Source of the DNA: Calditrichia bacterium
GTDB taxonomy: Bacteria > Calditrichota > Calditrichia > RBG-13-44-9 > J075
Length of the DNA stretch: 64,000 bases
Reading direction: 5' to 3'
Assembly: GCA_028284905.1 (NCBI GenBank)
Contig: JANQQU010000029.1
Coordinates: 1 to 64,000, forward strand
Positions 4,795 through 59,676 of the stretch are shown in pieces. A program made the translations under genes and the position numbers. The notes beneath the pieces were generated by a model, which had not been told where the DNA came from, made no database searches, and saw nothing but the letters and a program-made list of their open reading frames with translations. Each line of letters begins with the position of its first letter. The stretch's first letter is position 1.

Positions 4795-5014
4795 TGTTAG
4801 CCCCCGTCATTGCTCCGAGGGAGTCCCTTTGGGCTACAGTTTATGCACAAGTTTATATGTTACAGAAACACCTTAAAAATCTAATTTTTAGCCGCGGATA
4901 AACACAGATTTGCACGGATAAAAGCAAAACAATGACAAAATCAGTGAAAATCAGTGTATATCGGTGGCTAATATCCAAATTCTGCCTTCATTTTGCGGAA
5001 GATAAAGCCATATA
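4795..5014. repeat. Dispersed 220-bp repeat, copy 1
   Basis: This stretch matches 59456-59676 over almost its whole length in the same orientation. Shared blocks are TTTGGGCTA, 'tttttagccgcggataaacacagattt' and 'aaaatcagtgaaaatc' followed by GTGGCTAAT. The middle contains the widely scattered 'gccgcggataaacacagat...atcagtggct' inverted element. A shorter relative is at 20948-21062. No coding potential is visible, and it fills most of the gap between the genes at 4181-4750 and 5120-5488. Confidence 0.8.
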
Positions 5015-5529: not shown

Positions 5530-5664
5530 ATGAATCCATGGCTAATTTTCAGTTGCCCGATGATTCGGGCAGTTTTTGCGTCCCACAGGACGCTTGACAC
5601 TTAGCCTGGTGATTCATCACCGGGCGGATGGTCTTTAGGGCCAGCATTCAATTTTGTATAAATC
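5530..5664. repeat. Direct repeat R1, copy 1
   Basis: About 135 bp nearly identical to 5737-5870. Internal palindromes are TGCCCGAtgaTTCGGGCA, GCGTCCCACAGGACGC and GGTGATTCATCACC. A diverged third copy lies in inverted orientation at 11755-11905. There is no coding frame. The conserved hairpins suggest a mobile, non-autonomous palindromic element. Confidence 0.85.
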
Positions 5665-5736
5665 AACTACGCAGAGTTATAAGCCCCAAATCATTATTGC
5701 CAATATGATAAATTATCCAGTGCTTCCGGGGTAAAC

Positions 5737-5870
5737 ATAAATCCATGCGAATTTTCAGTTGTCCGATGATTCGGGCAGTCTTCGCGTCCCACAGGACGAT
5801 TGACACTTAGCCTGGTGATTCATCACCGGGCGGATGGTGTTTAGGGCCAGCATTTTATTTTGTATAAATC
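5737..5870. repeat. Direct repeat R1, copy 2
   Basis: Second copy of the element at 5530-5664, in the same orientation about 72 bp further on. Differences are scattered single bases (for example TGTCCGATGATTCGGGCAG against TGCCCGATGATTCGGGCAG), some of which break one hairpin arm. It ends 14 bp before the stop codon of the minus-strand gene 5884-7032 and so lies just downstream of it. Confidence 0.85.
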
Positions 5871-5883
5871 CACAACACCGGAT

Positions 5884-7032
5884 TTACAATCCTCCGAACA
5901 TAATTGCCTTTTGCATGAATTCATTTAGTTCTTCCGGGGACATTGCCAGACTCAATTTAGTAATGGCACCATCCTGAGATACCTGTAGGTTATTTAACAG
6001 ATTCAGGGCATCCGGTTGATCCGAGATCATCATCTTGCCAAGCGCTAATGCCCCCTGCAATAATTTAGCGACATCCGGAGAAAGTTGCTTCCCGCCGTGC
6101 GGCCGCACCTGATTCAGCATTCTCGCTACTATGCTGCCATCCCGACTACGCTTGCCATCTATTGGGACAAGCGGCTTCAGTGCTGTATAAATCCCTTGCC
6201 CATTCGCCGGACTGTTTGCCAGTACCGCCAAAGTGAGTGTACTAACCTCCCCAACATCCAGGGATACTGACAGAGCCTCGATATGTGCCAGCCCTGCAAC
6301 CTGGGGAATAAATGGAAACATCTCTTTCGGTCGCTCTGGCATTATTACCGGGATCGATATTAATCCCTTAAGCCCTTTGTTAAGCAGAGGGCCGATTTGG
6401 GGGGAACTATGAACATTTTTGCCGGCGCCTTGCGCACGTTCCAGCATATTTGTAAAGTGATCGGCTGAAGCCATGATCATGGTGTTGTTGTCTAAAAAAG
6501 CCATTGCCGGCCGATCCAGCGCTCCGGCGCGGGCAGATTCATCGGCAGATGCAACCATCGCACTGACAGCTATCCCGGACGCCTGCTTCTGTGAAACCGC
6601 TTCTTTCCCTGTAAAAGTAACCACACCGTGAGTTTCCCCAATTTCTAAAGTTTCTTTTTCTCGCGCGAATGCTTGATACTTGTCGATGTTGAACTCGCCT
6701 TCCAGGTAGGTAAACATTGCTGGCCTGACAGTCAGATCACCGCTAAACCCAATGGTCATACTGGTCAAATCAGTTTCCGGATTAAAACCGGTCCCGGCTT
6801 TAAACGCTTCAAATTCCGGGTTATCGGTCGGCATCATCGGGCTAAACAGTTTGCTGTATTTTTCGTAGGTTCCGGTTTGAACCAGACTAGCCCAATCAAC
6901 ATGCATCACCAGCACCGCATCTACCGGCATACTTTTTAATCCTTCTTCTCCCCTGGCCCAAACGAAATTATCATTGCCCGGCAATATCGTGAAGATGATT
7001 ACTGCCAGGATAACCAGCATCCTTCTGTTCAT
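5884..7032 (-). CDS. Exported hypothetical protein
   Basis: 382 residues from the ATG at 7032, which has a good AAGGGG ribosome site; an in-frame ATG 18 bases upstream lacks one. A signal peptide (MNRRMLVILAVIIFTIL, cleavage near residue 28) is followed by a soluble domain. The pattern 'MPVDAVLVMHVDWASL', then 'MTIGFSGD' and repeated 'LSVSLDVGEVSTLTLAVLAN' strands resembles periplasmic proteins with a DUF3352-like or related duplicated alpha/beta layout, but I cannot name the family with confidence. Probably periplasmic. Confidence 0.65.
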   Translation of the reverse strand: MNRRMLVILAVIIFTILPGNDNFVWARGEEGLKSMPVDAVLVMHVDWASLVQTGTYEKYSKLFSPMMPTDNPEFEAFKAGTGFNPETDLTSMTIGFSGDLTVRPAMFTYLEGEFNIDKYQAFAREKETLEIGETHGVVTFTGKEAVSQKQASGIAVSAMVASADESARAGALDRPAMAFLDNNTMIMASADHFTNMLERAQGAGKNVHSSPQIGPLLNKGLKGLISIPVIMPERPKEMFPFIPQVAGLAHIEALSVSLDVGEVSTLTLAVLANSPANGQGIYTALKPLVPIDGKRSRDGSIVARMLNQVRPHGGKQLSPDVAKLLQGALALGKMMISDQPDALNLLNNLQVSQDGAITKLSLAMSPEELNEFMQKAIMFGGL

Positions 7033-11352: not shown

Positions 11353-11640
11353 TTATGAAACGAGGGGAGGGGCTTTGTTTACAAATAGAAAACCGTCAAA
11401 GGTAGAAATATCGGAAAATTCGCAAAGAATGATTTTGTCAGCAGTTCTGGTATGCGGCACCTCAAGGGTAATGTTTGGAGCGGTCTGGCAACTGTGCAGA
11501 TTCGTCTCCACAATATTTGCCATACATTCCAGCGGTTCTTCAACAGAATCATGATGATGGTGCAGGAACGGCAGTCCAACCGTAATCCCGACCAGCAAAC
11601 CGGCAGTGAGCATTAAAACTGTTTTTGAGAATGTCCGCAT
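11353..11640 (-). CDS. NKAPP-tail small protein, His-rich (member 1)
   Basis: 95 residues. An N-terminal hydrophobic helix (KTVLMLTAGLLVGITVGL, residues 6-23) is followed at once by HHHHDS, then two Cys (C39, C51), and the protein ends in 'FLFVNKAPPLVS'. The same order (hydrophobic helix, His/Cys cluster, N-K/R-APP tail) is found in four other small proteins of this window, at 35675, 42488, 48138 and 48639. The closest is 48639-48929. The tail recalls the RAPP/RGPP ends of DUF2946-type proteins that accompany metal TonB receptors. A role in metal binding in the periplasm is inferred. No palindromic Zur-type box is visible upstream. Confidence 0.7.
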   Translation of the reverse strand: MRTFSKTVLMLTAGLLVGITVGLPFLHHHHDSVEEPLECMANIVETNLHSCQTAPNITLEVPHTRTADKIILCEFSDISTFDGFLFVNKAPPLVS

Positions 11641-11754
11641 TTTTATCTTTTCTGTTTAATGCTTAATACAATAATGGCTCGGAAAAGTTGCTTTTTTGAG
11701 GGTAAAATTACATCCTGTTATTTTATTCACTGAGGTTACGCACGGGCGATAAAA

Positions 11755-24647: not shown

Positions 24648-24670
24648 TAATTGCAACTGAGTTGCAATTA
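24648..24670. promoter_or_regulatory. Zur/Fur-type palindromic operator 1
   Basis: A perfect 23-bp palindrome with core ATTGCAACTGAGTTGCAAT lies in the 91-bp gap between the divergent ABC operon and the fur-family gene. The 15-bp core recurs at 36031, 42848 and 43101 (the last with the central G changed to C). Position and symmetry indicate an operator controlling both directions, including autoregulation of the regulator. Confidence 0.85.
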
Positions 24671-24727: not shown

Positions 24728-25114
24728 ATGCGGAAAACCAAAACACTAACACAAGTTCAAGAACTCTTTGACCGGCGCCAGGGGGCAGTTAGTGTTGTTG
24801 AACTCGTGGATCACTTTAGCGAGGTAATGAACAAAGTAACCGTTTACCGGATCTTGGCCCGCCTGGAAAAAGAGGGCGTTATTCATTCGGTCCGGGATAA
24901 AGATGGTTTAACCTGGTACGCCAAATGTCAGCACTGCTTAAAAAACAGCCACGACGATCATCATCCCCATTTTCAATGCAATAAATGTGGCAGAATGACC
25001 TGCATTCCCATGACCGTAACAATACCGAAAATCGAAAATCACAAAATTGAAAAAGAGTCCATTTTATTGGTGGGCGAATGTGAGGATTGCCAGACGGCAT
25101 TGGAAAATTCCTGA
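24728..25114 (+). CDS. zur: Fur family transcriptional regulator, probable Zur
   Basis: 128 residues. The winged-helix recognition region 'HFSEVMNKVTVYRILARLEKEGVIHSV' occupies residues 29-55. The sensing part has H-H-x-H (78-81), the structural zinc site C84-N-K-C87 and a second pair C118-E-D-C121. This is the layout of Fur/Zur proteins, slightly short. Specificity for zinc is inferred from the genes next to the same operator elsewhere: ZnuD-like receptors, COG0523 GTPases and a zinc-free bL28. The operator in its own promoter suggests autorepression. Decayed copies of this gene lie at 36100 and 42947. Confidence 0.88.
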   Translation: MRKTKTLTQVQELFDRRQGAVSVVELVDHFSEVMNKVTVYRILARLEKEGVIHSVRDKDGLTWYAKCQHCLKNSHDDHHPHFQCNKCGRMTCIPMTVTIPKIENHKIEKESILLVGECEDCQTALENS

Positions 25115-32943: not shown

Positions 32944-35232
32944 CTAGAAAAACACTTTATACAGCAACTTAATATTTCGCCCTGGTTCCGGCAGGATGTG
33001 TTTAACCCAATTTAAATGTTTCCGATATTCGGTATCGAAAAGATTATCCACACTGAGCGAAACCGTCGAAAATAACCCCATGCTATTAAAGTTATACTGC
33101 CCGAACAGATTCACCACTGTATAGCCGTCGGTTGCGGTTTCAAACTGCGCCAGCCGGGTTTGCGCATCCGCAGCGGTAATACCGCCCCCCAGGCTCAGCT
33201 GGCCGGATTGATAGCGCAGGTTGAATTTGCCTCCCAACGGCGGAATGCGCGGCAGCGCTTCATTGGTATTCGTAAATTCTGCTTTGACGTAACTGATCGT
33301 GCCACTGGCAAACCACTTCCCCAGGAGTTGTCGGTCAAATGCGGCTTCGATACCGCTCAACAGGGCATCTTTCTCCCCACTAACACGATATTCAAAAAGA
33401 GAGTAAATCCGCCGGCTGCGTTGGCCGGTATTCTCGGGAAAAATGTAATTGTTGATATGGTTACGGAAAACAGCCAGGCGCAGGCTTCCCCGGCTGTCCC
33501 TGTTTTCCAGAAAGGCTTCCAGACCAATTCCCTGCTCCTTATCTAAATCGGCATTACCGATTTCGTAAGTATATACCGCTAAATGTGGCCCTTCGGAGAA
33601 CAACTCTTCAATACCGGGTGCTCGGAAAGAGCGCATTGCTGTTGCCCCGAGAGAAAAACCGCTCCCGATATTGTATAAACCGGAAAGTGAACCGGAGAAT
33701 CCCTGGAAACTACGCGAGCGTATTACCCCGGCATCGGTAGTATCTCCGACATGCTGATTGGGATTAATATCTTTAGCATCAAAACGGAATGCGCCGTTAA
33801 GGGCAAATTTGTTCCATGCTGCTTCCTGGTAAATAAAAGCGGCGCCGGAATATTCCCGGGACCGTGGCGTCAGGTTGCGCCCACTGGAGGTATTGTGATC
33901 GCGGAATTCTCCCCAAAGACCGATTGCCCCATTTCGCAGGACACCGCTTTGCTTAAAACGCGCGGTAGTGGAAAAGTGATGAGTTTGCACATCAAAACCG
34001 GTGCCGGTAATTTCCCGCCCCAATCGTTCACTAAACTCAATTTCCGAATGCTGATAACGGGTGAAAGAATGGCGCAGTTCAATCCGGCGGAGCCAGCGGG
34101 ATCTCGGTAGCAGCTCGGCCTTGCTCTCCAGATGCCGGCGATTCAAATCGATGCGCACGCCACCGGGATGGCCGGCAACCGGGTCAGGAGGAATGCCATA
34201 ATCGGAATCGTAAAGACTGGCAGCAGAACCGATGTAACCCCAGGATCTGATCAGGCTAATGCCCACAGAGCCGTTCAGAGTGTTAATTTGGGTATTTTCC
34301 AGTGTTCCTTGCGGGGTGGAAATGTCCTGGGCATTGCGATAGCTGCCATCTACCCGCAGCGACAATGGTCCCATTGGTGCCCGTAAAAAGGCCCCACCGG
34401 AATATCCCTGGTTCACCGACTCTCCCTGCGCGCTGACAGAACCATGCGCATGTTGCACCACGCTTGTTGGCACGTAACCGCGCTCCACATTGATGACGCC
34501 GCCAATGGTGTTGGAACCATACAGCAATGCTTCCGGTCCGCGAATAACCTCTATGCGTTCGGCGGTCAGCGGTTCAATTACTACGGCATGATCCGATGAG
34601 GTTGCGGAAAGGTCTCCGGTACGTTCCCCGTCTTCGATAACCATCAAGCGGTCGCCGCTCAATCCGCGCAGCACCGGGCGGGCTGGGGCCGGACCCATGG
34701 TGCGTTGAGAAATACCCGGTTCATCGTCGATGGTTTCGGCAATGGTCCGTCCAAGATTCTGACGCAGTTTTCTACCACTCACTTCAACATCCGCTTTGGT
34801 TAATTCTGAAAGCAGATCTCTTCGCTGACCTTCCACAATAATCTCATCAACCTCAATTGGGGAACTGGCTAATTTCAGCGTCACTCGCGTCGTATCCCTA
34901 TCAGCAACGGTAATAGCAATCTTGCGGTCTCGATACCCCACCCGAAGCGTTTTTACCGTATAAACACCGGCTGGTAAGTTGGAAAAACGAAACTCGCCAT
35001 CATCACGCACGGTCGCCGAGCGATTTAATTCCACAATAAGAACTTGCGTCCAGCCAAGCGGCTCGCCGGTGTTTAAATCGACGATATTTCCAATTAACTC
35101 TCTGCCGGGGGCGGGGGGCGGTTCTGCCGCATCCTCGGAATGATTGGCATAACAGATGTTAACAAATAGATTAAAAACAATTCCCACCGCAAGAATCGCT
35201 TTTAATACAGACTTCAGGTTATTTCGTAACAT
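32944..35232 (-). CDS. TonB-dependent receptor, ZnuD-like (copy 1)
   Basis: 762 residues. A signal peptide (to about residue 30) is followed by a carboxypeptidase-regulatory-like domain ('GNIVDLNTGEPLGWTQVLIVE', about 45-125). The plug has 'RPVLRGLSGDRLMVIEDGERTGDLSATSSDHAVVIEPLTAERIEVIRGPEALLYGSNTIGGVINV', close to the ZnuD zinc-receptor pattern including the SSDHA segment, and a beta-barrel ends in a C-terminal F. It is nearly identical to 45008-47284 but its first codons (MLRNN) match the lipoprotein gene there, which points to an in-frame deletion fusion (see findings). It probably imports zinc or a zinc complex. Confidence 0.9.
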   Translation of the reverse strand: MLRNNLKSVLKAILAVGIVFNLFVNICYANHSEDAAEPPPAPGRELIGNIVDLNTGEPLGWTQVLIVELNRSATVRDDGEFRFSNLPAGVYTVKTLRVGYRDRKIAITVADRDTTRVTLKLASSPIEVDEIIVEGQRRDLLSELTKADVEVSGRKLRQNLGRTIAETIDDEPGISQRTMGPAPARPVLRGLSGDRLMVIEDGERTGDLSATSSDHAVVIEPLTAERIEVIRGPEALLYGSNTIGGVINVERGYVPTSVVQHAHGSVSAQGESVNQGYSGGAFLRAPMGPLSLRVDGSYRNAQDISTPQGTLENTQINTLNGSVGISLIRSWGYIGSAASLYDSDYGIPPDPVAGHPGGVRIDLNRRHLESKAELLPRSRWLRRIELRHSFTRYQHSEIEFSERLGREITGTGFDVQTHHFSTTARFKQSGVLRNGAIGLWGEFRDHNTSSGRNLTPRSREYSGAAFIYQEAAWNKFALNGAFRFDAKDINPNQHVGDTTDAGVIRSRSFQGFSGSLSGLYNIGSGFSLGATAMRSFRAPGIEELFSEGPHLAVYTYEIGNADLDKEQGIGLEAFLENRDSRGSLRLAVFRNHINNYIFPENTGQRSRRIYSLFEYRVSGEKDALLSGIEAAFDRQLLGKWFASGTISYVKAEFTNTNEALPRIPPLGGKFNLRYQSGQLSLGGGITAADAQTRLAQFETATDGYTVVNLFGQYNFNSMGLFSTVSLSVDNLFDTEYRKHLNWVKHILPEPGRNIKLLYKVFF

Positions 35233-35275
35233 TTTTTCTCTATTCGATATTTTATATGAAAATGCAAGTTATAGA

Positions 35276-35328
35276 TTTTTTTAAATCGCCTCATCAAACC
35301 CTTTAAACCGCTATTATGCACAAGGCTT
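35276..35328 (-). pseudogene. Remnant of the 102-residue small-protein gene start
   Basis: The DNA TTTTTTTAAATCGCCTCATC and the following CTTTAAACCGCTATTatgCACAA match the start and leader of the gene at 48138-48446 (TTTTTAAATCGTCTCATAAA, CTTTAAACAGCTATTctACACAA). Only about five codons (starting MRRFK) survive; the rest of that gene and most of the next lipoprotein gene are missing here. The remaining gap up to 35675 holds no gene I can support. Confidence 0.75.
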
Positions 35329-35674
35329 ACTGGAATCACGAGGACACAGCAAGAAGCTCGGCGAATGTGCAACTGCCAGCGTCATCGTAGCAATGAAGGT
35401 TGCAATATTTGCTACTCGCCTAACGTTTATGGAAAGACGGCCAGTAGTATTGCTCATCACCACAGAGCTCTGAAACCCCGATGGCAATACTGTTCAGGCT
35501 TAATTGTGCGTTACCAGTTGTTAAACAGAGCGCCTTGGACTTGCCGAACAGGGCAGCAAAATTTCCCGGAGAGTGCACAAGAATTGTTTACATATTCTCC
35601 CTGGAAATGCTACAGCATGGAGCTGGTTTTTAAAAAAGCACAATCCGCTTAGACTTTAGGTGATATAAGAGAGT

Positions 35675-35962
35675 TTAAATGATGGGAGGGGCTTTATTGA
35701 GAAATTGAAACCCGGAAAAAGAAGAAGAAAGCGGCACTTCCTGAAGAAATAGAAATGCGACCGCCCTCGGTGGGGTAAATAGAAATAATGCCAGGGCAAA
35801 CAGGAGACAACTGGTAATCAAGTTAGTCTGTAAAATACAAACCTGGCACTCTTCGAAGTCGCAACAAGCATCTGCTGTAAGATGTGAAACCGGAAAAGCG
35901 ACTAATATTCCTAACAACAACCCAAGGGCAATGATTAATAATATTTTATTTACTAACTTCAT
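35675..35962 (-). CDS. NKAPP-tail small protein, Cys-rich (member 2)
   Basis: 95 residues. The first helix is 'ILLIIALGLLLGILVAF', then comes a metal-type cluster 'ACCDFEECQVC' (four Cys within about ten residues), a second helix ('LITSCLLFALALFLF') and the tail 'FQFLNKAPPII'. It is a close paralogue of 42488-42775. The Zur-type box at 36031 lies 69 bases upstream of its start, so zinc repression is likely. It resembles DUF2946-like companions of metal receptors; this is inference. Confidence 0.8.
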   Translation of the reverse strand: MKLVNKILLIIALGLLLGILVAFPVSHLTADACCDFEECQVCILQTNLITSCLLFALALFLFTPPRAVAFLFLQEVPLSSSFSGFQFLNKAPPII

Positions 35963-36030: not shown

Positions 36031-36045
36031 TGCAACTGAGTTGCA
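36031..36045. promoter_or_regulatory. Zur/Fur-type palindromic operator 2
   Basis: The 15-base core TGCAACTGAGTTGCA is perfect. It lies between the divergent NKAPP gene (35962, minus) and the decayed zur copy (about 36100, plus). After the box comes the leader TTTTTTTGAAAGCAG, the same as after operator 1, which shows that the box and the zur start were duplicated together. Confidence 0.85.
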
Positions 36046-42487: not shown

Positions 42488-42775
42488 TTAAATGATGGGA
42501 GGCGCTTTATTGAGAAATTGAAATCCGGAAAAAGGAGGGGAAAGCGGCATTTCATGGGAAAATAACAGCGTGATTGCCCGGGGTGGAGTAAACAGAAGTA
42601 ATGCCAGGGCAAACAGAAGGCAAGCGGTAATCAAGTTGGTCTGTATAATACAAACCTGGCACTCTTCGAAGTCGCAACAATCATGTGAATGAAGATCCGC
42701 AACTGGAAAAGCGACCAATACGCCCAGCAGCAACCCAAGTGCAATGACAAAAAATATTTTGCAAACTAAATTCAT
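42488..42775 (-). CDS. NKAPP-tail small protein, Cys-rich (member 3)
   Basis: 95 residues. Helix 1 'IFFVIALGLLLGVLVAF', then the cluster 'LHSHDCCDFEECQVC' (two His, four Cys), helix 2 'ACLLFALALLLFTP', and the tail 'FQFLNKAPPII'. It matches member 2 (35675-35962) almost throughout, including flanking DNA at the stop. The Zur-type box at 42848 lies 73 bases upstream of its start. It is the best evidence that this family belongs to the same regulon. Confidence 0.82.
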   Translation of the reverse strand: MNLVCKIFFVIALGLLLGVLVAFPVADLHSHDCCDFEECQVCIIQTNLITACLLFALALLLFTPPRAITLLFSHEMPLSPPFSGFQFLNKAPPII

Positions 42776-42847: not shown

Positions 42848-42862
42848 TGCAACTGAGTTGCA
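42848..42862. promoter_or_regulatory. Zur/Fur-type palindromic operator 3
   Basis: A perfect TGCAACTGAGTTGCA core, 73 bases upstream of the NKAPP gene and about 100 bases before the second decayed zur copy. The leader TTTTTTTAAAAGCAGGT after it matches those behind operators 1 and 2. Confidence 0.85.
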
Positions 42863-43095: not shown

Positions 43096-43118
43096 TTATT
43101 GCAACTCAGTTGCAATAA
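43096..43118. promoter_or_regulatory. Zur/Fur-type palindromic operator 4
   Basis: A perfect 23-bp palindrome with core ATTGCAACTCAGTTGCAAT, differing from operator 1 only by the central C. It lies 77 bases upstream of the ribosomal-protein operon. It is the only operator here that precedes no zur copy. Confidence 0.87.
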
Positions 43119-45007: not shown

Positions 45008-47284
45008 CTAGAAAAACACTTTATACAACAGCTTGATGTTACGCCCCGGCTCTGGCATGATGTGTTTTACCCAATTCAAATGTTTCCGATATTCGGTATC
45101 GAAAAGGTTATCCACACTGAGCGAAACCGTCGAAAATAAACCCAGGCTATTAAAGTTATATTGTCCGAACAGATTCACCACTGTGTAACCGGCAGTTGCT
45201 GTTTCAAATTGCGCCAGCCGGGTTTGCGCATCCGCAGCGGTGATTCCGCCCCCGAGACTCAGTTGTCCGGATTGATAACGCAGGTTGAATTTACCTCCCA
45301 ATGGCGGAATGCGCGGCAGCGCTTCATTGGTATTTGTAAATTCTGCTTTGACATAACTGACAGTACCGCTGGCAAACCATTTCCCCAACAGCTGCCGGTC
45401 GAACGCGGCTTCGATACCGCTCAACAGGGCGTCTTTCTCACCAGTAAGACGATATTCAAAAAGCGAATAAATCCGTCTGCTTCGCTCACCAGTGTTTTCC
45501 GGAAAAATGTAGTTGTTGATATGGTTCCGGAAAACAGCCAGGCGCAGGCTTCCCCGGCTATCTTTGTTTTCCAGAAAGGCTTCCAGACCGAATCCTTGTT
45601 CCTTATCTAAATTGGCATTACCGATTTCATAAGTGTATACCGCCAGGTGCGGCCCCTCGGAAAACAACTCCTCGATACCGGGCGCACGGAAAGAGCGCAT
45701 TGCTGTTGCACCGAGAGAAAACCCGTTCCCGAGGCTGTATATGCCGGAAAGCGAACCGGAAAATCCCCGAAAGCTGCGCGAGCGCACCAGGCCGGCTTCA
45801 GTGGTATCTCCGACATTTTGTTTGGGATTTACATCTTTAGCATCAAAACGGAGTGCACCGTTAAGGGCAATTTTTTTCCAAATTGCTTCCTGGTAAATAA
45901 AAGCAGCGCCGGAATATTCTCGGGAGCGCGGGGTGAGGTTGCGTCCGCTGGAGGTGTCGTGTTCGCGAAATTCTCCCCAAAGACCGATTGCCCCATTCCG
46001 CAAAACCCCGCTTTGATTAAAACGCGCGGTGGTGGAGAAATGTTGGGTTTGCACATCAAAACCGGTACCGGCGATTTCCCGGTCCAATCGTTCGCTAAAC
46101 TCAATTTCCGAATGCTCGTAGCTTGTGAAAGAATGGCGCAATTCAATTTGCCGGAGCCAGCGGGATTTCGGCAGCAGTTCTGCTTTACTTTCCAGGTGCC
46201 GGCGATTCAGATCGATCCGCACGCCGCCGGGATGGCCGGCAACCGGATCGGGGGGAATGCCGTATTCGGAATCGTAATAACTGCCGGCAGTGCCAATATA
46301 TCCCCAGGGTCTGATCAAGCTGATGCCTACCGAGCCGTTCAGGGTATTGATATGAGTGCTTTCCAGGGTGCCTTGTGGGGTGGAAATGTCCTGCGCATTG
46401 CGGTAACTGCCATCAATCCGCAGCGATAATGGCCCCATCGGTGCCCGTAAAAAAGCGCCGCCGGAATATCCTTCGTTTACTGATTCTCCCTGCATGCTGA
46501 CGGAACCATGAGCATGATGCGCCACCACTGTCGGCACGTATCCACGCTCAACATTGATGACGCCGCCAATGGTGTTGGAGCCATAGAGCAACGCTTCCGG
46601 TCCGCGAATGACCTCGATGCGCTCGGCGGTCAGCGGTTCAATTACCACCGCATGATCGGACGAGGTTGCGGAAAGATCGCCGGTGCGTTCCCCGTCTTCG
46701 ATAACCATCAAACGGTCGCCGCTCAATCCGCGCAGCACCGGACGTGCCGGTGCCGGGCCCATTGTGCGTTGAGAAATGCCCGGTTCATCATCGATAGTCT
46801 CGGCTATAGTCCGTCCGAGATTCTGGCGCAACTTTCTGCCGCTCACTTCCACATCGGCTTTGGTTAATTCTGAAAGTAGATCTGTTTGCTCGCCTTCAAC
46901 AATAACCCCTTCAACCTCGATAGGCGTGCTGGCCAATTTCAGAGTGATCCGCGTCGTATCCGCATCGGTGACGGTAACGGCAATCTTGCCATCCAGATAC
47001 CCTACCCGAAAAGTATTTATTGTATAAATACCGGCAGGCAGGTTAGAAAAGTGAAATTCGCCATCATCGTGGGCAGTTGTCGAGCGATTCAATTCCACAA
47101 TGAGAATTTGCGTCCAGCCCAGCGACTCGCCGGTGTTTGCATCAACGATTTTCCCCAGCAATTCACTACCGGGAGGAGGTGTTGCTGCATCTTCGGAATG
47201 ATTGGCATAAGACGCATTCGTAAAGAGAAGAAAAGCGATTCCCAGAACGGGAATCGCTTTTAATATGGACTTCAAATATTTCAT
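45008..47284 (-). CDS. TonB-dependent receptor, ZnuD-like (copy 2)
   Basis: 758 residues. MKYLKSILKAIPVLGIAFLL starts a signal peptide, followed by the carboxypeptidase-regulatory-like domain, the ZnuD-type plug with 'SSDHAVVIEPLTAERIEVIRGPEALLYGSNTIGGVINV', and the barrel. It differs from copy 1 mainly at the N-terminus and in scattered substitutions. The upstream lipoprotein stop and this ATG share one base (TAATG), so the operon is small protein, lipoprotein, receptor. A zinc or zinc-complex importer is the best guess. Confidence 0.92.
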   Translation of the reverse strand: MKYLKSILKAIPVLGIAFLLFTNASYANHSEDAATPPPGSELLGKIVDANTGESLGWTQILIVELNRSTTAHDDGEFHFSNLPAGIYTINTFRVGYLDGKIAVTVTDADTTRITLKLASTPIEVEGVIVEGEQTDLLSELTKADVEVSGRKLRQNLGRTIAETIDDEPGISQRTMGPAPARPVLRGLSGDRLMVIEDGERTGDLSATSSDHAVVIEPLTAERIEVIRGPEALLYGSNTIGGVINVERGYVPTVVAHHAHGSVSMQGESVNEGYSGGAFLRAPMGPLSLRIDGSYRNAQDISTPQGTLESTHINTLNGSVGISLIRPWGYIGTAGSYYDSEYGIPPDPVAGHPGGVRIDLNRRHLESKAELLPKSRWLRQIELRHSFTSYEHSEIEFSERLDREIAGTGFDVQTQHFSTTARFNQSGVLRNGAIGLWGEFREHDTSSGRNLTPRSREYSGAAFIYQEAIWKKIALNGALRFDAKDVNPKQNVGDTTEAGLVRSRSFRGFSGSLSGIYSLGNGFSLGATAMRSFRAPGIEELFSEGPHLAVYTYEIGNANLDKEQGFGLEAFLENKDSRGSLRLAVFRNHINNYIFPENTGERSRRIYSLFEYRLTGEKDALLSGIEAAFDRQLLGKWFASGTVSYVKAEFTNTNEALPRIPPLGGKFNLRYQSGQLSLGGGITAADAQTRLAQFETATAGYTVVNLFGQYNFNSLGLFSTVSLSVDNLFDTEYRKHLNWVKHIMPEPGRNIKLLYKVFF

Positions 47285-48114
47285 TATTGAGTTACCGTTA
47301 CCGGTATATCAGGTGTATCAAATTCCGGAGTGCCGTCGTGCAACAGTCTGACTACGAATGTGGTAGAACCAGCTTGTTTTCCAACAACAACCATCTCGTA
47401 GGCTTCATCTTCGTGCTGCATGGCTTCTGCCGTAGCGGCATCTGCATTGATGAATGTCAGGGCATGCTCAGCGGGATCCGGCTGAAAGGTTTCGCCTTCG
47501 TCATTCAGGAAAAAGACCACCAGGTGATCGGTCGTATCGCCTGCTGCAACGCTGAGGCTGCCGGTCACAGTACCATTGTTAACCGTAATCAAGGTATCTC
47601 CGGTATCTTCTTCGAGAATGATCAGGCCAACAGGCTCTTCTTCGCCACCATGCTCTTCGACATGAATTTCAATCGGCGCGGATTCGAAATCGGCATGATC
47701 GCCATGGAGAACGCTAATGGTGAGATCGGTATGACCGTGAGATTCACCTTTAATATGGAAGGACCAATCTTCTCCTGCATGTTGAACAATTGAAGCGATG
47801 CTTTCATCTTCAATATTCAAGCGCAGAGAAAATTCATCGTCTTCCGGGATGCCCTCAGTGCCATCTTCCAGAAGGAAACGAACACTGATCAGCGTGGTGG
47901 TGAGGCCTTCTTCAACTTCAATTTCACCGGTCACAGCGCCGTTTTCATAGGAAACGATGTCCACGCCGTTTTGGCGCAACGTGAGGCCTATCGCTTCAAA
48001 GTGATGATCATCGTCCGGGGCTGTACTGTCTTCGCTACAGCCGACGGCTAAAACAACCAGCATGATTAGCGTGGCTATATATCTATAAATGATGGTAAGA
48101 TTTTTGCGTAACAT
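47284..48114 (-). CDS. His-rich two-repeat lipoprotein
   Basis: 276 residues. The lipobox LAVG-C26 is at the end of a signal peptide. Two repeats of about 115 residues follow (about 42-155 and 160-276), each starting near '(I/V)GL-L' and containing 'ENGAVTGEIEVEEGLTTTLISVRFLLEDGTEG' or 'NNGTVTGSLSVAAGDTTDHLVVFFLNDEGET'. Histidines cluster in 'DDDHHF', 'GESHGHTDL', 'LHGDHADF' and 'VEEHGGEE', giving a candidate zinc-binding periplasmic or surface protein. It is coupled to the ZnuD-like receptor by a one-base overlap. It could collect metal for the receptor. Confidence 0.85.
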   Translation of the reverse strand: MLRKNLTIIYRYIATLIMLVVLAVGCSEDSTAPDDDHHFEAIGLTLRQNGVDIVSYENGAVTGEIEVEEGLTTTLISVRFLLEDGTEGIPEDDEFSLRLNIEDESIASIVQHAGEDWSFHIKGESHGHTDLTISVLHGDHADFESAPIEIHVEEHGGEEEPVGLIILEEDTGDTLITVNNGTVTGSLSVAAGDTTDHLVVFFLNDEGETFQPDPAEHALTFINADAATAEAMQHEDEAYEMVVVGKQAGSTTFVVRLLHDGTPEFDTPDIPVTVTQ

Positions 48115-48137
48115 TTTTTCTCCTAATTCAATTTTTT

Positions 48138-48446
48138 TTATGGAAATACAATTTTTTGCCAGAGTGTCAGAATAAGATTCGGAGGCGCTCTGTTGGAAAA
48201 ATTTCCTTTATAAAACCGGTCTGGCAGGCTTGCTTCGAAAAAGAGAAGAAGCTCTGACTTTCTAAAAGGGACTAGTAAAATTGTAGCGATAATCGCTATG
48301 AGAATACCGGATAAATGATGATATACCACGCAAAGCACACAATCCGGTGTATCAATCGGATGCTGATGCAGCAACGGCATAGCAATCATAAAACTAAGTA
48401 TTAGTAACGCTAATACAATTAAAAATGGGTTTTTAAATCGTCTCAT
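48138..48446 (-). CDS. Small membrane protein, NRAPP-tail (member 4)
   Basis: 102 residues. 'FLIVLALLILSFMIAMP' forms a helix, then 'LLHQHPIDTPDCVLCVVYHH' holds His and a C-x-x-C pair, a second helix 'GILIAIIATILLVPF' follows, and the end has 'FSNRAPPNLIL'. It is a divergent member of the NKAPP family and heads the operon with the His-rich lipoprotein and the ZnuD-like receptor, 23 bases upstream of the lipoprotein. A remnant of its start is kept at 35276. Confidence 0.75.
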   Translation of the reverse strand: MRRFKNPFLIVLALLILSFMIAMPLLHQHPIDTPDCVLCVVYHHLSGILIAIIATILLVPFRKSELLLFFEASLPDRFYKGNFSNRAPPNLILTLWQKIVFP

Positions 48447-48638
48447 AAAGCTCTTTAAACAGCTATTCTACACAATGATCTAAGAATTATGTATCTGCAC
48501 GTTTGTTTCACATGGGCAAGTTGCGATCACTGCTGAATCCCGAAAGGGTACCCGCAGCATGCAACGTGACATCATTTCTTGAAATGGATAGAAATGGAAC
48601 CACAACGGGCGTGAAGAAACAATGTGCGTATCGAGAAA

Positions 48639-48929
48639 TCAGACCAAAGCGGGAGGGGCTTTATTAATAAAAAGGTATCCGGAAAAAGCTGAAAAAGCCG
48701 TTTCCTGGAAGACAATAGCAAGATGTGAGATTTGCTTGAGAGGATTATTGACAGCAATGACCTGCGCAGACTGGCTACCATTGAGATGCTTCTCAACGAC
48801 GTTTGCCATACACTCTACCGGCTGCTCTTCACAGGTGTCGACATGATGATGCAGAAAAGGCATCCCCACGGCAATTCCGACCATTAGAGCGGCGGCGAAG
48901 ATGAGTGATATTTTCGAGAATCTGCGCAT
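48639..48929 (-). CDS. NKAPP-tail small protein, His-rich (member 5)
   Basis: 96 residues. Helix 'ISLIFAAALMVGIAVGMP', then HHHVDTCEEQPVEC (three His, two Cys), then 'YLFINKAPPALV' at the end. It is closest to member 1 at 11353. The two also share upstream DNA (ATGC...TAATACAAT...GGC before the start). It lies about 190 bases before the operon of member 4. No Zur-type box is visible nearby. Confidence 0.72.
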   Translation of the reverse strand: MRRFSKISLIFAAALMVGIAVGMPFLHHHVDTCEEQPVECMANVVEKHLNGSQSAQVIAVNNPLKQISHLAIVFQETAFSAFSGYLFINKAPPALV

Positions 48930-49127
48930 TTTAGTTCACTTTTTTTATGCCTATCTAATACAATTTGGCATCCGATAAAGTTTCCTGCCCTACAAAACTT
49001 TGATATTTCGGGCAGGCGAAAAGATACTCGCTTTTCCCAAGTTTGACAATGGAAATAAAAATTCAGGGCACTAAAGCAAAAAGTTGTGGCTAAGAAACTG
49101 TGACATTCTTCATGCGTGGACAGCGAA

Positions 49128-50094: not shown

Positions 50095-50325
50095 GGTATA
50101 TACATAAATTTACAACCCGAAGGGTATGTCGCCCCCACGGGGCTCAAATGAGATTTGAAGCCTTTTTATCTATAAATATGTCGTCCCTACGGGACTTGCT
50201 TTCTAAAACTCTTGTTTTAAGCATTTTGAACGCCCCATAGAGGCAAAATATTTATAGTTAATAAAATCTGCTAAGAACCAAGAGCCCTGTCGGGGCGAAA
50301 TATTTCTACAAATTTAAGCCCAATC
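50095..50325. repeat. Cluster of TATAAATATGTCG/CCCTACGGG palindromes
   Basis: The block contains 'gtatgtcgcccccacggggctc' at about 50125, 'ctataaatatgtcgtccctacgggactt' at about 50171, and inward-facing arms 'cgccccatagaggcaaaatatttatag' at about 50233 and 'gccctgtcggggcgaaatatttct' at about 50286. It is the same family as 30048 and 52250. From 50326 to 50694 I see no gene or other signal. Confidence 0.8.
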
Positions 50326-52249: not shown

Positions 52250-52705
52250 CCATCTAAATATACCGCCCCTACAGGGCTGAAGGGGTGTTTGGTTTCTTCC
52301 TAGCTATAAATATTTCGCCCCTATGGGGCTTAATCGGTGTTTGGTTTCCTCTTAGCTATAAATATGTCGTCCCTACGGGACTCGCTTTGTAAGATACTCG
52401 ATTTTAATGGATTGATCGTCCGGTAGGGGCATAATATTTTTAGCCGTTTATTTTGCGAATAAAAATAGCTCTGTAGGGGCGTAATATTTTTAGATAGTGT
52501 TTGGTTTCTTCTTAGCTATAAATATGTCGTCCCTACAGGACTCGCTTTGTAAAATACTCGATTTAAATGGATTGATCGCCCGGTAGGGGCATAATATTTT
52601 TAGCCGGTTTATTTTGCGAATAAAAATAGCCCTGTAGGGGCGTAATATTTATAGATAATAAATGTCGCAAAAAACAATAAGCCCTGTAGGGGCGACATAT
52701 TAAGG
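52250..52705. repeat. Tandem 160-bp repeat with inward arms
   Basis: Two full units with a 160-bp period start at 52337 and 52497 with GTGTTTGGTTTC(C/T)TCTTAGC, and a partial unit starts at 52285. Each has CTATAAATATGTCGTCCCTA near the front and GTAGGGGC with TAATATTTTTAG near the end, opposed to it. Units differ by few bases (for example TACGGGACTCG and TACAGGACTCG). The unit is flanked by further copies of the arms to 52705. Related single copies are in 30048-30290 and 50095-50325. Confidence 0.85.
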
Positions 52706-59455: not shown

Positions 59456-59676
59456 TTGTCATGGCTGTCATCGCTCCGAATAAATCCCTTTGGGCTAGGG
59501 TTTATACATAAGTTTACATGTTAAAAAAACATCTTAAAAAATTAATTTTTAGCCGCGGATAAACACAGATTTGTACAGATAAAAGCAGAACGATGAAAAA
59601 TCAGTGAAAATCCGTGTATATCAGTGGCTAATGTCCAAATTCTGTTTTCATTTTAAGAAAGATGAAGTCATGAAAA
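59456..59676. repeat. Dispersed 220-bp repeat, copy 2
   Basis: Matches 4795-5014 in the same orientation across nearly all its length, with the same TTTTTAGCCGCGGATAAACA and GTGGCTAAT blocks and the flanks CTTTGGGCTA and GAAGTCATGAAAA/AAAGCCATATAAA. It separates the symporter gene from the GH13 gene. The remaining bases to 59903 hold no further feature. Confidence 0.8.

Follow-up and report, generated by a model that had tools for sequence, protein, structure and literature searches.

In-frame gene fusions are known to arise by short-homology deletion between neighbouring genes of an operon. The fold of BtuG is a beta-propeller. This protein is the surface lipoprotein partner of the TonB transporter BtuB (PMC10404256). 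The zinc receptor ZnuD of Neisseria meningitidis (PDB 4rdr) has its high-affinity zinc ligands in Asp-99, His-100, His-499 and Glu-340 (PMC4557270). A 7-1-7 palindrome is a frequent form of the Zur box, and TonB receptors, COG0523 genes and zur itself are common members of Zur regulons (PMC6103462). We herein describe two copies of a ZnuD-like receptor in the window, by which we mean the whole 64,000-nucleotide stretch of Calditrichia DNA that was analysed, and show that the gene for one of them has taken its start from a lipoprotein gene. Literature searches turned up no paper on operons of this type.

Two ZnuD-like receptors and their zinc setting

Receptor copy 1 (32944..35232, minus strand) encodes a ZnuD-like TonB-dependent receptor of 762 amino acids, in which the plug (PF07715) and barrel (PF00593) domains both score over the Pfam cut-off. 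ZnuD, with which it has this plug and barrel in common, is by far its best solved relative, the PDB match to 4rdr having E = 5.6e-38 and that to the next molecule 1.8e-17. Against the NCBIfam ZnuD model (NF038289) the receptor reaches 200.8 bits, below the cut-off of 950, so that we call it ZnuD-like rather than ZnuD, although no other NCBIfam model scores better. Three of the four high-affinity ligands of ZnuD align as identical residues, with D214, H215 and H550 of copy 1 facing Asp-99, His-100 and His-499, while the fourth, Glu-340, lies in a region left unaligned by phmmer. Unlike ZnuD, the receptor possesses an extra N-terminal carboxypeptidase-regulatory-like domain and, in its unfused form, has a lipoprotein as an operon partner.

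Receptor copy 2 (45008..47284, minus) is unfused, and its ATG overlaps the stop codon of the lipoprotein gene before it (TAATG). That gene (47284..48114, minus) is an intact paralogue of the donor of the fused start and encodes 276 amino acids with two predicted Ig-like domains. Further upstream lie the intact small-protein gene B (48138..48446, minus), which has a weak DUF2946 match, and an open reading frame for small protein X, the first gene of the copy-2 unit (48639..48929, minus). The first gene of the copy-1 unit is an open reading frame for small membrane protein A (35675..35962, minus), which shares 76% amino acid identity with A' (42488-42775) and 58% with protein A of a relative, G003. 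Gene A groups with A' and not with X, so the operon that was duplicated differed in some respect from that of copy 2.

Four paralogous small membrane proteins (35675-35962, 42488-42775, 48138-48446 and 48639-48929) carry a C-terminal N(K/R)APP motif, and such proteins occur in zinc-related clusters both here and in relatives. At the DNA level, 11485-11643 resembles 48771-48932. Repeats are also found at 52337-52657, 50125-50308, 5530-5939, 4806-5011 and 59467-59671; they include a tandem unit of ~160 bp, to which related copies occur in both orientations, a second tandem of ~200 bp, and two dispersed copies of 206 bp that are 85% identical.

The two receptors share 88.4% amino acid identity, with a receptor difference of ~16%, dN of 0.06 and dS of 0.57-0.70. 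Unique amino acid changes number 28 in copy 1 and 33 in copy 2, without asymmetry; copy 1 is under purifying selection at a rate equal to that of copy 2. With 62% identity at fourfold sites, the copies are old paralogues, too diverged to date the order of duplication and deletion or to tell one event from several.

A Fur-family regulator, probably Zur, is encoded at 24728..25114 (plus strand; PF01475 over cut-off). The perfect palindrome TGCAACTNAGTTGCA has four exact copies in the window (24652-24666, 36031-36045, 42848-42862 and 43100-43114), which neighbour zinc-related genes as well as the regulator gene, and none elsewhere in the 8.55 Mb genome. One copy lies beside the regulator gene, one, the exact Zur-type palindrome TGCAACTGAGTTGCA at 36031..36045, upstream of gene A, and two upstream of A'. 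The sole further copy in the genome, with one mismatch (G000:C42:149067), adjoins another Fur-family gene, and G003 has one-mismatch copies upstream of both its gene A and its Fur-family gene. The natural reading is that the palindrome is probably a Zur operator of this lineage. Its position upstream of gene A suggests that copy 1 is still zinc-regulated, in which case the receptor would be expressed from a Zur-controlled promoter before gene A; a search of the interval from gene A to receptor 1 revealed no intrinsic terminator. Near the promoter of copy 2, no zinc-type operator was found at up to 3 mismatches. Copy 2 has two GTPases of the COG0523 type on its downstream side, of which one is a ZigA scoring above its cut-off.

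The fused start of receptor copy 1

The minus-strand sequence of copy 1, ...AGAGAAAAAATGTTACGAAATAACCTGAAGTCTGTATTAAAAGC..., agrees with that quoted in the earlier note, which had claimed that the lipoprotein gene's leader and initial codons stand at the start of this gene, that the gene continues as receptor copy 2 from codon 4, and that the surviving head of the small-protein gene precedes it at 35276-35328. Blastn of minus-strand 36100-35000 against 49000-47000 bears out all three points, giving three collinear, consecutive matches between the two stretches. The head of small gene B, comprising its leader, an ATG at 35294 and ~6 codons, survives at 35278..35323 (minus), where 46 bp are 85% identical to 48430-48475. 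The lipoprotein leader and first codons follow at 35270-35216 (57 columns, 79% identical to 48154-48098), and from 35216 onward the sequence matches the receptor from 47274 onward, the similarity of the copies beginning at receptor codon 4. The order of small-gene head, lipoprotein head and receptor is identical in copy 1 and copy 2, and the first blastn match in order is 35755-35684 to 48721-48651, the tail of the first small gene.

In a comparison of the window against itself, the two short remnant matches have E-values of 1e-6 and 4.5e-5. A chimera of the three joined copy-2 pieces aligns to 35140-35330 with a score of 183, while 1000 shuffles average 13 and never exceed 42. As the middle piece is slid over 1070 positions covering the lipoprotein gene and its flanks, the median score is 111 and the best placements coincide with the lipoprotein start. 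When the 8.55 Mb genome is searched with a 29-base pattern taken from the fused start, allowing up to 3 mismatches, two sites match, namely the fusion itself (0 mismatches) and the lipoprotein start (3 mismatches). The ATG at 35232 is the sole available start of copy 1: an in-frame stop lies 13 codons upstream, and no ATG, GTG or TTG occurs in frame between the two. Codons 1-5 (MLRNN; 35218..35232, minus) are assigned to the lipoprotein start by alignment and pattern search, with the ambiguity described below, and the remnant of the lipoprotein leader at 35233..35270 (minus; aligned to 48115-48154) now forms the 5' leader and ribosome-binding region of the receptor gene. Since only the n-region of the signal peptide is exchanged, the exported receptor should be unaffected, and as the lipobox cysteine (C26) was not carried over, copy 1 should not have turned into a lipoprotein.

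Pairwise alignments of the start region support a switch from lipoprotein to receptor. From their ATG codons, the lipoprotein reads ATGTTACGCAAAAATCTTACC, copy 1 ATGTTACGAAATAACCTGAAGTCTGTATTAAAA and receptor copy 2 ATGAAATATTTGAAGTCCATATTAAAA; in G003, the lipoprotein reads ATGTTACGAAAAGATATGAAGGCCATTTTTAGA. In copy 1, codons 1-3 are specific to the lipoprotein and those from codon 9 onward to the receptor, whereas between codons 3 and ~8 both parents are alike (TGAAG.CCAT.TT); a short common sequence is present in G003 too (ATGAAGGCCATTTT in the lipoprotein vs TTGAAGTCCATATT in the receptor). Because the parents are alike here, the switch can be placed within codons 3 to ~8 but not at a single codon, so that the switch put forward in the earlier note stands, while its position near codon 5 is not fixed. 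The other joint, between small gene B and the lipoprotein leader, falls within a run of A.

The data are best fitted by two deletions, which agrees with the earlier claim that one or two deletions fused the receptor in frame. By copy-2 coordinates, the first would have removed ~275 bp, from small-gene codon 6 to the lipoprotein leader, and the second ~820 bp, from lipoprotein codon 4-8 to receptor codon 2-6. As in a deletion-made fusion, the 5' end of copy 1 comes from the upstream gene and the remainder, in frame, from the downstream gene. The short homology around TGAAG probably helped the second deletion and kept the frame. The remnants, at 85% and 82%, are more alike than the fourfold sites of the two receptors, of which 62% are identical (P ~0.001 each, in a test that ignores the A+T-rich composition of the remnants). 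This would mean either that the remnants are constrained or that the deletions postdate the duplication.

Relatives, rival explanations and proposed history

In G003, the lipoprotein gene lies directly 5' of the receptor gene (proteins 79% and 77% identical) and overlaps it by 1 base. The same arrangement is found in two further relatives, G005 and G006, with a 4-base overlap (proteins 55-57% and 64-67% identical), and G025 and G021 have shorter, more divergent lipoprotein homologues upstream of the receptor, so that unfused neighbours are present in all five. In the receptor tree, copies 1 and 2 are sisters, with G003 next out and then G005/G006. Taken together, these relations indicate that the lipoprotein-receptor pair is ancestral, that the duplication followed the split from G003, and that copy 1 lost its lipoprotein gene; the polarity is that of deletion, not insertion.

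None of the genomes that keep the intact arrangement has the fused start, their receptors beginning with MRHIKS (G003) or MRLFK/MRRFK (G005, G006), and the 29-base pattern has no match in any of the 6 other family genomes. Both refuting tests named in the earlier note, on the alignments and on this start in other genomes, thus left its reading standing. Among the genomes compared, the fusion is found in this one only. A search with copy 1 against 84,980 species genomes returned distant relatives only (22-36% identity) and no more close copies, fused or unfused. No remnant of small gene B was found in the G003 gap upstream of the lipoprotein gene, so G003 does not help in placing the first deletion. 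The receptor starts of G005 and G006 (L027 9509 and L028 2545) carry ~45 extra codons in the signal-peptide n-region (...KSCHKGPKNLRFTKKYLKFL...), which resemble an element inserted in frame.

We put the probability at roughly 90% that a duplicated operon underwent two internal deletions in copy 1, giving the in-frame joint of lipoprotein and receptor. The strongest of the other explanations, although still improbable, is that a duplication breakpoint made the fusion, a 5'-truncated receptor having been copied behind an already damaged head of the small gene and lipoprotein gene. Such an origin would account for the onset of receptor-copy similarity at codon 4 and for the separate matches of remnant heads and receptor. 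It would, however, require the receptor to land by chance in the right order, strand and frame behind tiny remnants that keep the copy-2 order, which is much less economical than deletion, and gene A and its operator were duplicated in this lineage as well, as the higher identity of A to A' than to G003 A indicates.

The reverse polarity, with the fused arrangement ancestral and the lipoprotein gene inserted into copy 2 later, draws on the presence of both states within one genome and on nothing more; it is refuted by the lipoprotein gene 5' of the receptor in G003, G005 and G006 (and its shorter homologue in G025 and G021), with copies 1 and 2 being sisters within those relatives. Leaders are A-rich and many might resemble GGAGAAAAA, which could make the likeness a matter of chance or of a common ribosome-binding or regulatory motif. 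This reading has next to no probability in view of the margin over the shuffles and the genome-wide search, where the one other match is the lipoprotein start itself, and the small-gene head matches too, in order. The draft state of the genome (93 contigs) and the presence of two similar operons might raise the suspicion that an assembly error joined two loci, but a difference of ~16% between the receptors, and more at the junction, is excessive for a collapse or chimeric join, and at the junction itself copy 1 has drifted away from both parental sequences. Misassembly is accordingly rejected as extremely improbable.

On the deletion reading, an operon of small membrane protein(s), lipoprotein and ZnuD-like receptor would have been duplicated in this lineage, after which two internal deletions in copy 1 would have left almost nothing of small gene B or of the lipoprotein gene. 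The second would have joined lipoprotein codon 4-8 in frame to receptor codon 2-6, aided by the common TGAAG and its neighbours, and the receptor would thereby have gained its own leader and start codon instead of overlapping the lipoprotein stop.

Expression and comparison with known systems

In copy 2 and G003, no Shine-Dalgarno site precedes the receptor start (-3.1 kcal/mol), whereas the lipoprotein gene does have such a site at its start (-7.3 and -9.1 kcal/mol). This fits translational coupling of the receptor to the lipoprotein in the intact operons, presumably the ancestral state as well, although coupling is less clear in G005/G006, where a possible ribosome site precedes the receptor (-6.0 kcal/mol). 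As the receptor start in copy 2 and G003 overlaps the lipoprotein stop and lacks a ribosome site of its own, loss of the whole lipoprotein gene would strip the receptor of its start signals. The earlier statement that copy 1 was fused to lipoprotein start signals holds for the leader and start codon, but the ribosome-binding site has since been weakened from AGGAG to AGAG (-2.9 kcal/mol). The small-gene head is now a 26-codon open frame (ATG 35294, stop 35216-35214) overlapping the receptor start.

A hairpin of 13-15 bp (AAAAGCGATTC...GGAATCGCTTTT) lies in the receptor signal-peptide codons, at 47231-47261 (minus) of the window, at ~35172-35206 in copy 1, at ~8849-8884 of L026, and in the G005 and G006 receptors. 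It is terminator-like in copy 2, its stability exceeds that of synonymous recodings (0.3%, 4.8% and 0% of nulls for copy 2, copy 1 and G003), and three of its pairs have changed on both sides across the five sequences. The hairpin is a possible attenuator or ribosome-pausing element. A further, rather doubtful extension is that the fusion rewired expression: intact receptors would be translated by reinitiation from the lipoprotein only, with the hairpin tying transcription to that translation, whereas copy 1, with its own start, weaker hairpin and 26-codon leader frame, would serve as a separate zinc-starvation receptor and copy 2, with its lipoprotein and no recognisable operator, would serve another condition.

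The value of this locus is clarity rather than surprise. It is a fossil of operon shrinkage after duplication in which both deletion joints can be read, with the intact paralogue and the outgroup state at hand. The joint illustrates how a gene without its own ribosome site may survive, by a deletion that retains the upstream start, and the two copies offer a natural pair of zinc receptors, with and without a lipoprotein partner, for probing the role of the lipoprotein.

As with BtuB-BtuG (PMC10404256), the lipoprotein gene adjoins the receptor gene in one operon and the receptor is present more than once in a genome. The lipobox cysteine C26 is invariant in 6 homologues. Sequence searches gave no family match beyond one weak Pfam match and no usable match in the PDB, and the AlphaFold model (mean pLDDT 88) has two all-beta domains with generic Ig-like matches at low TM-scores. 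The lipoprotein may be a partner of the receptor at the cell surface, in the manner of BtuG and BtuB, although in place of a beta-propeller it has two predicted Ig-like sandwiches, and copy 1 is without a partner gene. The event that produced copy 1 is of a well-documented, ordinary kind, namely duplication followed by in-frame deletions at a short common sequence. It resembles known short-homology fusions in that an internal deletion puts a downstream gene behind the start of its upstream neighbour, and differs from them in that what is kept from the upstream protein is about five codons of a cleaved signal peptide.
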